A stretch of 64,000 nt of DNA. It comes from a bacterium. GTDB lineage: Bacteria > Verrucomicrobiota > Lentisphaeria > Victivallales > GWF2-38-69. Positions 10,326 through 14,681 of this stretch are shown here, in pieces. The stretch covers positions 1-64,000 of the forward strand of contig JAJXWI010000006.1 of NCBI GenBank assembly GCA_021781705.1, in the 5' to 3' direction. The notes under the pieces were generated by a model. That model made no database searches and was not told the origin of the DNA. It worked only from the letters and a program-made list of their open reading frames with translations. Positions within the stretch are counted from its first letter, which is position 1. Every line of letters begins with the position of its first letter. The position numbers were made by a program, and so were the translations under genes.

Positions 10326-10504
10326 CCTTAATCTCCTATCCTTTTGTGTTTTTGTGGACTGTTGTTACATAATTAAAATTAATTCAAAATATAATTATTC
10401 AAGCAAGTAAGTTTTAAAAAATATTATTAAACTTTAAAACTTAAAATAATTTTAACTGCGAGTTTTTTATGTTAATACTAAATTCCCACCCGATCAATTT
10501 ATTT

Positions 10505-10606
10505 CTTCTTCGTTTGTTATCGTAACTATGAGCTTTTTAAGCCTCTCAAAATCTACTATAACTTATCGTCTTAAAGGGGTATACCATGTCTGGGGTATTT
10601 TCTGCT
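10505..10606 (+). mobile_element. IS481-type transposase tail relic, left copy
   Basis: About 100 bp that match, in opposite orientation, 13366-13465 at roughly 88-90% identity by eye. The right part (TTAAAGGGGTATACCATGTCTG) also matches the 3' end of the transposase gene at about 14550-14573. Translated in that frame it reads LKGYTMSG, against LKGYTIS in the full gene. I read it as the 3' end of a lost IS copy. It forms the left inverted arm around the CxxG/DUF362 cassette. Confidence 0.65.
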
Positions 10607-10901: not shown

Positions 10902-11228
10902 ATGAAAAAGAAACGACTTCAATGGGGATCAGGGCTGGCACTACGCCACTTTGATGATAGAACTCGTTCATTGTTGTGCAATAACGGAAGTGCCCCTGAC
11001 GGGCTTAGGGATAATTTGGGTGGATATTGCGGAGCCGGGAACACTCCTGAATATAATCCAGCGTCTTATTGCACTGATGGAGGAAATAATAATTCGAACT
11101 GGGGTAAGTATTCTTGTAGTCTTGGTAATAATCCGAGTGGGGATCAGGACTGTGTTGAGGGCAATGTGATTGACAAAGATGTCATTTATCCCGGTGCATG
11201 CGCCGATGGCGGGATGATTATAGCGTAG
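10902..11228 (+). CDS. Candidate RiPP-type precursor peptide with six CxxG motifs (copy 1)
   Basis: 108 aa, no homologue recognised by name. A short basic N-terminus (MKKKRLQW) with LRHFDDRT is followed by a core very rich in Gly, Asn, Ser and Asp. It contains exactly six cysteines (26, 43, 57, 72, 84, 100), each in a C-x-x-G motif: CNNG, CGAG, CTDG, CSLG, CVEG, CADG. Spacing is 12-17 residues. The regular spacing, small hydrophilic residues and leader-like N-terminus resemble ranthipeptide/sactipeptide precursors, whose cysteines are crosslinked by radical-SAM enzymes. No such enzyme lies in the window. An in-frame stop lies four codons before this ATG; no clear Shine-Dalgarno sequence. The shared pattern with the next ORF makes coding likely. 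Confidence 0.6.
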   Translation: MKKKRLQWGSGLALRHFDDRTRSLLCNNGSAPDGLRDNLGGYCGAGNTPEYNPASYCTDGGNNNSNWGKYSCSLGNNPSGDQDCVEGNVIDKDVIYPGACADGGMIIA

Positions 11229-11259
11229 ACTGTGGTAGGGATTATTGATGATTCTATCG

Positions 11260-11338
11260 TAGCATCTCCGAAGCAACGCAACAGCAGAAAACAAGCGGAT
11301 AAAGAATGGGGAAATTCCAGAAGATTGGAGTCAGAAAA
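11260..11338 (+). mobile_element. IS5-type transposase fragment (short relic)
   Basis: The stretch from TCCGAAGCAACGCAACAGC to the A6 run matches 59403-59490 of the larger IS5-type relic with only small changes and a short deletion. In translation it corresponds to the PKQRNS...NKQIKNGDIPE...W part of IS5-family transposases. Only about 80 bp remain, between the two CxxG peptide ORFs. Confidence 0.75.
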
Positions 11339-11341
11339 AAC

Positions 11342-11659
11342 GTGCAATATAACAAGTTGGAACTACAAGAACTTAACAGTAGCTCTCATACCGGTGAGCG
11401 AGCCATTAGAAAAACATACTGCTACGCGGGGTCGGGCGCCTCTGGGAGCAGCTTGCCAGCATCGGGATGCGGCGATGGCTCATCCGTAAAGAATCTGGGC
11501 TATTGCAATGATGGAGGGGGGGATAACCATATTGGTCAGATGTGTGGTGACGGGGGACAGACATTTGGTGCATCGGGCGCACCAGAATGTGCTGCTGGAA
11601 ACGGAGCTGACGACACGCCACATCCAGAACTCACGTGTAATATTGGAACCAACCCCTGA
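11342..11659 (+). CDS. Candidate RiPP-type precursor peptide with six CxxG motifs (copy 2)
   Basis: The frame is open from an ATG at 11306, but bases up to 11338 belong to an IS5 relic. I therefore prefer the GTG at 11342, which has GGAG about 11 bases upstream and gives 105 aa. The N-terminus QYNKLELQELNSSS resembles the K-x-P-x-L-type leaders of peptide natural products. The core holds six cysteines, each in CxxG (CYAG, CGDG, CNDG, CGDG, CAAG, CNIG), 12-16 residues apart, almost the same spacing as the upstream copy. The function is unknown. A crosslinked secreted peptide is an inference from composition and leader; no maturase is present nearby. Confidence 0.6.
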   Translation: MQYNKLELQELNSSSHTGERAIRKTYCYAGSGASGSSLPASGCGDGSSVKNLGYCNDGGGDNHIGQMCGDGGQTFGASGAPECAAGNGADDTPHPELTCNIGTNP

Positions 11660-12011: not shown

Positions 12012-13208
12012 ATGACTAATAATGCTAAGAATGTGGTTATATCAAAAGGACTTGGGCCTTATGAGAATACAAAAAAAGTTCTCGCACATTTTGATTTTTC
12101 GCACCTGAAAGGGAAAAAAGTATTGCTTAAACCAAACGCGGGGCGAGTAGCTCAGCCGGAAAAAGGAATAACTACTCATCCGCAAGTGGTTGCCGCAGCT
12201 ATAGATTTTTTCAGAGAATTTGCTTCCACAGTCGCCATAGGGGAAAGCCCTATTTCCGGCGTAAAAACAATGGAAGCATTTGAAGAAACAGGAATAGCCT
12301 CCGTAGCCAGGGATCGAAACTGCCCCCTACTAGACCTCGATAAAAACAAACCCGTTATAACAGAAATACCAAAATCCATAACAGTAAAAAGCCTTAAGAT
12401 TTGTAAAGAGATATTTGAATTTGACTACATTGTTTCAATTCCCGTCATAAAAACCCATATGCATACTGGAATAACTCTCGCAATAAAAAATATGAAAGGA
12501 TGCTTATGGCGGAGAAGCAAAGTGCTCTTTCACATGCTTCCCGAAATTAAAGGATGTAAAGAAAAACCAATTGATGTAGCCATTGCGGAAATGTCTACTG
12601 TCTTAAAGCCGCATTTCTCCATAATTGATGGCACTATATGCATGGAAGGGATGGGGCCAAGCGCAGGGAATCCACGCCCGATAGATACTGTCATTGCCGG
12701 AGAAAACCCTTTTATGGTTGACGCAGTAACCTGCGCATTAATAGGCATTGACCCTGCAAGCATACCGCACATCAGAATGGGTGCGGCCCTCAATAAGACT
12801 ACTATTGACTTAGATAAAATAGATATTCTCCCGAGAAATTGGAAAAATTACATAGTGGCGTTTGAAACTTCGCCATCCTCCTTTTCTATACAATACCCAA
12901 ACATCATAGTTCATGATAGAAATTCGTGCAGTGCGTGTCAATCATCACTATTTTTGTTTCTTAAACAGTATGGCAAGAAACTTCTGGATTATTTCCCAGT
13001 AGAAAATATAAATATTGCAATCGGCAAGGGAAACTCAAACCTCCCAGAAAAAACTATCTGCATAGGAAACTGCACATTAAATAGCAAAACAAAAGGCATA
13101 TATATTCAGGGATGCCCTCCTGTTTCCAGCGAAATATTGAGATCAATAACTGGCTCGGAAGAATTTGATACTGCTGACGGGCATGGACAACGTCCGATAG
13201 AAAAGTAA
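12012..13208 (+). CDS. DUF362 domain-containing protein
   Basis: 398 aa. DUF362 features: KKVLLKPNAG near 34, an IGESP near 77 after a strand, and VSIPVIKTHMHTGITLAIKNMKG near 139-161, then DGTICMEGMGPSAG near 199 and a conserved NPFMVDAVT near 230. Many DUF362 proteins carry C-terminal ferredoxin domains; this one does not, though Cys residues recur (NSCSACQSS, GNCTL, QGCPPV), which could bind a metal or cluster. The biochemical role of DUF362 is not established. It lies between two inverted IS481-tail relics together with the CxxG peptides, so it could be cargo of the same insertion. Weak Shine-Dalgarno sequence before the ATG. Confidence 0.85.
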   Translation: MTNNAKNVVISKGLGPYENTKKVLAHFDFSHLKGKKVLLKPNAGRVAQPEKGITTHPQVVAAAIDFFREFASTVAIGESPISGVKTMEAFEETGIASVARDRNCPLLDLDKNKPVITEIPKSITVKSLKICKEIFEFDYIVSIPVIKTHMHTGITLAIKNMKGCLWRRSKVLFHMLPEIKGCKEKPIDVAIAEMSTVLKPHFSIIDGTICMEGMGPSAGNPRPIDTVIAGENPFMVDAVTCALIGIDPASIPHIRMGAALNKTTIDLDKIDILPRNWKNYIVAFETSPSSFSIQYPNIIVHDRNSCSACQSSLFLFLKQYGKKLLDYFPVENINIAIGKGNSNLPEKTICIGNCTLNSKTKGIYIQGCPPVSSEILRSITGSEEFDTADGHGQRPIEK

Positions 13209-13365
13209 ATTTTGATTTAGCAAAAGAACACTAGCAGCTTGTCGGGCTTTGCTCTAAAGATTATAAAGGCTACTTCTAAAAATATCTTTTTGAGAGTTTA
13301 TGTTCAAAAATAATTTTACCACATTCAAGGTTGAAGAGCAACCAACAGAGGTTTGAATTGCAGAA

Positions 13366-13465
13366 AATACCCCAGACATGATATACCCCCTTTAGGACGA
13401 TAAGTATAGTAGATTCTGAGAGGCTTAAAAGCTCATACTTATGCTAACAAACGAAGAAGGAACAC
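13366..13465 (-). mobile_element. IS481-type transposase tail relic, right copy (inverted)
   Basis: Reverse complement of 10505-10606 with about ten differences and one indel. Its 3' side points left, into the cassette. Ends about 100 bp before the IS481-type transposase gene. The remaining parts of the 13209-13561 gap hold no gene. A hairpin (GGAACACT at about 13458 with AGTGTTCC at about 13504) lies at its outer edge. Confidence 0.65.
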
Positions 13466-13561: not shown

Positions 13562-14681
13562 ATGTTTGATCTGACACCTAGAATGGTTTTACAGGCTAAA
13601 TCGAATGGCATTAAACCTACGGCTAAGTTGTATATGACTAGTGTACGCATAGTTAGAAAATGGTTCAGGAGATACAAAGAATCTGGTAAAAGCGGACTTA
13701 AAGATGTTAGTAGGCGTCCCCAAAATAGTCCTAACGCTATTCCAGAAGAGAAGCGAAAATTGATAAAAGAACTTAGGGATAAAACTCATTTTGGAGCAAG
13801 CAGACTGAAGGCTGAATACAATTTAACAAATTCCTCCAGAACGATAAACAAAGTATTACACAGATACGGCCTGATCAAGAAGAGAAAGCGCAAGCACCAT
13901 AAAAAAAATGATTTAAGACAAGAAAAAGCAAAAAAAATATCAACCTTTAAAGTACTATCAGCTTGATGTTAAGTATCTTAATGATATACCGCAGTATTAT
14001 CGTTATATAGTAGAACTTTCTCTGCCACGTTTTGAATACACAATTCGAGATGTGATAACTGGAGCTGTTTTTCTCGGATATTCTCAAAGCTGCAATATGA
14101 CATATTCCTGTTTATTTGTAAGCAAATTCCTGAATCATCTGAAAGATAGTGGAATAGATTTAAGCCAAGTAATCATACAAACAGACAATGGTAGTGAATT
14201 TTCTGGCACGGAGAGAAAGGAAAGAGACAGGGGATTCAAGCACATGATTGAGAAAGTATTCAAGTCTAAACACAGGCCTATTCCACCGAGTTGTCCAAAT
14301 GCCGATGTAGAAACTTTCCATAACCTTGTAGAAAATGATTTTTTTGATCTCGAAAATTTCGCTTCTCGGGAAGATTTCTTTTGCAAAATTTCAACATATC
14401 AGTCCTACTTCAACTATCTGAGAAAGAACTCTTATAAAGGCTATAAAGCTCCTGCTGAATTGATCAAATTAGCTTTACCCGACTTCGACTGCAATAGCTA
14501 CTTATCTTTTTTCCCTGTTGACTTGGATGAATTGCTTGTTAAGCTTTTCTTAAAAGGGTATACCATCTCTGTAAACATCCCGCGGACTATGGAATTTTCT
14601 CTGGATTTTACCATGGAATTATGTTTGAGTTTGAGTTTGACATATCTTATGGCGTTAGGATATAGTACTATCAAAGCCTAA
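13562..14681 (+). pseudogene. IS481-type (DDE integrase core) transposase, split by a frameshift at an A8 run
   Basis: The first frame (13562-13966) encodes a helix-turn-helix region: VRIVRKWFRRYKESGKSGL, then HFGASRLKAEYNL and a basic linker. At the A8 homopolymer (about 13930-13937) the frame is lost. Removing one A restores KYQPLKYYQLDVKYLND, running straight into the second frame. The catalytic triad is complete: D in QLDVKYLND, D in IIQTDNGSEF, E in ADVETFHN. The product would be about 370 aa. Either a decayed gene, a sequencing error in the homopolymer, or programmed frameshifting. The tail after LKGYTIS (about 14570 on) does not look like the family and may be outside the original gene. 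Confidence 0.85.

Follow-up and report, generated by a model that had tools for sequence, protein, structure and literature searches.

Paired six-CxxG reading frames in a Victivallales genome as probable orphan precursors of a SynChlorMet radical-SAM peptide system

The DNA analysed here, hereafter referred to as the window, is a stretch of 64,000 nucleotides at positions 1 to 64,000 of contig C109 (JAJXWI010000006.1), from an uncultured Lentisphaeria-type bacterium. It carries two small open reading frames, ORF1 and ORF2, which run in the same direction, are separated by 77 bases and have serA-serC-DUF1015 genes on one side and a DUF362 gene on the other. The locus comprises the following features.

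10502..10605, forward strand: left arm of an inverted repeat of about 105 bp, 90% identical to the right arm
10902..11228, forward strand: ORF1, CxxG precursor-type frame of 108 aa, with leader-like residues 1-25 (MKKKRLQWGSGLALRHFDDRTRSLL) and a core, residues 26-108, with six CxxG
11306..11659, forward strand: ORF2, CxxG precursor-type frame of 117 aa, with leader-like residues 1-38, including YNKLELQEL, followed by a six-CxxG core
12012..13208, forward strand: gene of a DUF362 protein (PF04015, 175 bits), adjoining the pair
13360..13462, reverse strand: right arm of the inverted repeat, partner of 10502..10605

The two arms enclose ORF1, ORF2 and the DUF362 gene, and their sequence resembles that of an IS481-like transposase gene at its 3' end; for the left arm, a 24-bp stretch matches positions 14548-14571, within the transposase ORF 14052-14681. 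The IS481-like transposase of the window [13562-14681] is broken over two ORFs, [13562-13966] and [14052-14681], and is probably inactive. A fragment 87% identical to it is found on contig C116. A relative from the same family (G002) retains the order DUF362 ... serA-serC-DUF1015 without CxxG ORFs, and its DUF362-serA interval is occupied by two unrelated ORFs of about 620 and 180 aa. Since the junction order is kept in this relative without CxxG ORFs, the pair can be described as specific to its lineage, at a junction that is itself conserved. The G002 genome gave no match, at the threshold used, to ScmE, a radical-SAM enzyme described below. The DUF362 gene is a conserved neighbour that presumably lies outside the peptide system.

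All 12 cysteines of the pair lie within CxxG motifs, six in each ORF. They correspond to residues 26, 43, 57, 72, 84 and 100 of ORF1, with spacings of 17-14-15-12-16, and to residues 39, 55, 67, 80, 95 and 111 of ORF2, with spacings of 16-12-13-15-16. A sequence-only reading of the window had described exactly this layout and both spacing series, and the translations confirm them. It had also held that random frames would not show such a pattern, which the controls bear out: residue shuffles, 20,000 for each ORF, never yielded six CxxG, and in a survey of the window together with 71 control loci, which gave 7312 stop-to-stop frames of 60 aa or longer, ORF1 and ORF2 alone have at least six CxxG with every Cys in such a motif. 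The annotated frame has the top codon score of the six frames in both cases (0.084 versus 0.074 for ORF1; 0.026 versus -0.048 for ORF2). These margins are small, so codon usage by itself is weak evidence for coding; the objection that the frames might be non-coding, anticipated in that reading, finds no backing in the scores, which do not make either ORF look non-coding. Searches of Pfam and NCBIfam with ORF1 and ORF2 gave no match, and promoter-like matches around the pair were not commoner than in shuffles. None of the 36 radical-SAM matches of the genome lies on C109, in agreement with the earlier remark that the window lacks a maturase.

The two ORFs have relatives in their own genome. Including the pair, there are 12 family matches, of which one is at a maturation cassette described below, eight are intact orphans (the pair and six others) and three appear decayed. 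A search for further CxxG ORFs had been recommended, and it recovered the following homologues, each with a repeated CxxG motif.

C127:43210-43515: one family member
Contig C35: two family members
Contigs C99 and C14: family members
Contigs C65, C98, C1, C20 and C25: family members

The family loci consist of single or paired ORFs, mostly amid unrelated genes. The copies on C1 (L207) and C20 (L208) look frameshifted and that on C25 (L209) looks truncated, which may reflect decay or assembly errors. Membership of the pair was assessed with a profile made from seven other sequences of the same genome and eight from other genomes, both window ORFs being excluded. Against the 995 ORFs of the window, this profile ranked ORF2 first (E 2.3e-9) and ORF1 second (E 4.8e-5), and none of 2000 shuffles scored as high as either. 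The profile search proposed in the sequence-only reading thus places both window ORFs, by their sequences, in the precursor family, and we regard this membership as established. A profile made only from the precursors of other genomes did not give significant values for the window ORFs (E 0.22 and 3.1), so the kinship of the pair is demonstrated through its own-genome paralogues. Scanning the contigs of the genome with the single sequence of ORF2 revealed no relatives.

A comparison of the flanks of the window pair with the other orphans revealed no DNA similarity. One orphan on contig C35 is surrounded by 133-bp inverted repeats (L023 4552-4683 and 7743-7875), which look like MITE-type repeats and occur about 40 times in the genome, partial copies included, with one copy just past the end of the window at C109:64129-64238. 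Spread of the orphans inside this shared repeat was considered and rejected, because at about 40 copies genome-wide its nearness is uninformative. An orphan CxxG ORF of the same contig is flanked by two short genes that are ~80% identical to each other and have a signal-peptide-like start, MKNKLKV... (L023 4882-5478 and 6792-7076).

A complete SynChlorMet (Scm) cassette is present on contig C14 (L065 2073-8455), accompanied by a gene for an S26 signal-peptidase-like protein and by a precursor with five CxxG. ScmC, ScmD, ScmE and ScmF lie together at C14:2908-8455, and each exceeds its NCBIfam equivalog cut-off.

C14, ScmC (TIGR04249): 218 bits, cut-off 125
C14, ScmD (TIGR04248): 101.5 bits, cut-off 100
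C14, ScmE (TIGR04250): 567 bits, cut-off 400
C14, ScmF (TIGR04251): 543 bits, cut-off 400
C14:2073-2282: precursor of 69 aa with five CxxG, at the end of the gene set

The full set, all on one strand, consists of genes for a PqqD-like protein, two SPASM radical-SAM enzymes, an MsbA/NHLM-like ABC exporter, an HprK-like protein and an S26 signal-peptidase-like protein, and the precursor. The radical-SAM/SPASM genes that had been suggested as a search target near CxxG ORFs are therefore the ScmE/ScmF pair beside the C14 precursor, and this cassette is likely the maturation locus. NCBIfam models gave no match to the precursors. The solved structures nearest by sequence are the sactisynthase SkfB for ScmE and BlsE-type enzymes for ScmF, both at superfamily distance. 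Other SPASM maturase candidates, on C116 (308 aa), C37 and C59 (weak SPASM score), had no CxxG ORF in the stretches examined around them. The SynChlorMet cassette is known from profile models only, with no substrate or product described in the literature searched: neither the Scm names nor the model accessions led to a paper, and the RRE-Finder paper does not mention Scm.

The association of the family with the cassette extends to other genomes. In an order-level survey of 137 genomes, seven have an ScmE over the cut-off (a true ScmE). Family matches at E<1e-3 were found in 6/7 of these Scm genomes versus 1/130 of the others (Fisher P 6e-9), and the lone match among the 130 has an internal stop. 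In the seventh Scm genome (G087), two CxxxG-variant ORFs adjoin the cassette; three others of this kind are found at the second of the G128 cassettes. These C-x-x-x-G precursors lie beside the cassettes at L092 8344-8640 and 8711-9241 (G087) and at L085 16-878 (G128), suggesting rings that are one residue larger. Five CxxG ORFs, on both strands, surround ScmC/ScmD of another Victivallales cassette (G088, L101 1043-3836). Furthermore, a scan of public genomes for ScmE relatives of at least 40% identity gave nine loci, and a CxxG ORF passing the strict criterion was found at 6/9 of them versus 0/71 control radical-SAM loci spanning 1.14 Mb (P 2.8e-7). By record title, the six belong to Lentisphaeria, Victivallales, Nitrospirae, Anaerolineales, Chloroflexi and Fermentibacteraceae. 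At a seventh Scm locus, from Deltaproteobacteria (L110), the match is a looser one and its leader, SYEKPALIDM, is good; the remaining two (L108 and L114) have no convincing precursor, L108 ending early at a contig end. We consider the family, its location at Scm cassettes and its restriction to Scm genomes to be established.

Several weaker candidates were set aside. No convincing CxxG ORFs were found near sub-cut-off ScmE-like genes (G012, G024, G037, G082, G102 and G126); frames at L102 and L104 that passed a loose filter near such genes look like GC-rich off-frame reads. A single-sequence search of 60 relatives gave two weak own-genome matches, later shown to be paralogues, and a weak match in G012, a genome without a true ScmE; its remaining matches were weak and of composition type.

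The precursors share a core unit and a leader. Over 133 motifs from outside the window, the unit is C-x-x-G-x-x-[A 44%, P 15%, V 15%], with Ala, Pro or Val at position C+6 in 74%; this bias indicates that the conserved unit is longer than CxxG. Some units are one residue longer (CxxNG, CxxTG). The leader pattern of the family is K-Y-x-x-P-x-[LIM]-x-x-L. RiPP maturases of the ScmE/ScmF kind usually bind the leader through a PqqD-like domain.

Both window ORFs very probably descend from the Scm precursor family. The interpretation that we favour, to which we assign a probability of roughly 0.6, is that they are functional orphan precursor peptides whose Scm radical-SAM RiPP system is encoded at another site in the genome. 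The only plausible enzymes for the pair act in trans; their action on this particular pair, and its expression, we infer. In the proposed pathway, the leader would be bound by the PqqD-like RRE protein ScmD, and the SPASM radical-SAM enzymes ScmE and ScmF would oxidise every C-x(2,3)-G unit. The most likely linkage would join the Cys sulfur to the alpha carbon of the Gly three (or four) residues on. The HprK-like ScmC may add phosphate, the S26-type peptidase would cut off the leader and the ABC transporter would export the product. A single maturation cassette would be shared by many dispersed precursors. The RiPP-precursor reading made from the sequence, with enzymes acting in trans, holds in its outline; the refinement is that the system is a SynChlorMet cassette and differs from the loci of classical ranthipeptides or sactipeptides.

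Glycine has no beta carbon, which makes a ranthipeptide-type bond to Gly unlikely. We propose a chain of Cys-Gly C-alpha rings because ScmE is nearest to SkfB and because streptosactin (GggA/GggB) contains a C-x-x-G ring, in which one SPASM enzyme forms a Cys31-Gly34 S-C-alpha bond and the rings are unnested (PMC8172795). The product would resemble streptosactin in topology, with small Cys-Gly thioether rings following one another along the chain without nesting. C-alpha thioether (sactipeptide) chemistry for the family is suggested by this CxxG precedent. A more ambitious reading, which we hold tentatively and as somewhat improbable in its entirety, is that the one cassette modifies a genome-wide library of no fewer than nine intact and dissimilar precursors, of which eight, the tandem pair of the window included, are orphans. 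Each would become a chain of five to seven small Cys-Gly thioether rings of four or five residues, which would make the family a bead-chain type of RiPP and the system a radical-SAM counterpart of promiscuous lanthipeptide systems.

Among the alternatives, the most probable concerns the bond. The pair may be Scm RiPP precursors with another chemistry, in which Cys is joined to a beta or gamma carbon (ranthipeptide) or to a partner other than Gly, or in which the linkage is C-C or C-O. The strong bias at C+6 would suit this, Ala or Pro three residues past Gly being a possible partner, and the scores of ScmE against PapB, PqqE and other SPASM families are roughly the same. However, Gly is the one fixed partner and a link to it must be at C-alpha, and a Cys-x-x-Gly sactionine is already known from streptosactin. 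We rate another chemistry as unlikely though a serious contender, with the qualification that this estimate overlaps the favoured explanation and does not exclude functional orphans.

It is slightly less likely again that the pair are relics, derived from Scm precursors and now non-functional (untranscribed or unrecognised), stranded between transposase remnants. The leaders of the pair have lost conserved residues: that of ORF2, YNKLELQEL, matches Y-x-x-P-x-L-x-x-L save for the Pro, and that of ORF1, WGSGLALRHF, fits the family pattern poorly, both Tyr and Pro being missing. With leaders so degenerate, there is a real chance that the pair is decaying. ORF1 has no clear ribosome-binding site, the inverted copies of the transposase 3' end enclose the pair, and the C1, C20 and C25 copies appear frameshifted or shortened. 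Against this, ORF1 and ORF2 are open over their full length, two intact copies lie side by side, and every one of their cysteines is still within CxxG, a pattern that drift would quickly break. Moreover, the genome is a MAG, a consensus assembly, so assembly errors may account for some of the apparent frameshifts in other copies.

Small metal-binding or disulfide-rich proteins with no relation to RiPPs could also have six Cys in a chain rich in Gly, Asn and Asp, but CxxC pairs are absent, Pfam and NCBIfam hold no match and the family is closely tied to Scm radical-SAM cassettes, which makes this reading very improbable. Chance open frames, for which one could cite the missing database matches and a codon usage that favours the frames only weakly, are already refuted by the shuffles, the 7312-frame survey without a third case and the leave-out E-values of 2e-9 and 5e-5.

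The functional-orphan reading can be compared with known systems. With SynChlorMet the likeness is direct, since the cassette of this genome passes all four equivalog cut-offs with a CxxG precursor adjoining and the window ORFs are of the same precursor family; the difference is that the pair, on C109, is away from the cassette, on C14. Streptosactin is a 14-mer with two rings, one to Ser and one to Gly, made by one maturase without ScmC or ScmD, whereas here 5-6 CxxG extend across some 80 residues and there are two maturases. Prochlorosin-type systems, which are LanM lanthipeptides, have one promiscuous maturase and many dispersed precursor genes. The likeness lies in one cassette with many scattered precursors, while the enzymes and motifs are unrelated. 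The ranthipeptide freyrasin (PapA/PapB) and SCIFF peptides likewise combine six evenly spaced Cys motifs with a SPASM maturase, and their six thioether bonds would have a counterpart here. In freyrasin, however, the bond goes to the beta carbon of Asp (PMC8172795, PMC8326336), and Gly, the proposed partner here, cannot accept at that position.

The substrate family appears to be new, as do the two ring spacings within it, its distribution across several phyla and the occurrence, in one genome, of a single cassette with eight intact scattered precursors. The Scm cassette gains a substrate family, consisting of C-x(2,3)-G-x-x-[APV] repeats behind a K-Y-x-x-P leader. In this one genome most Scm precursors lie far from the cassette, and genome mining of maturase neighbourhoods would miss such precursors.
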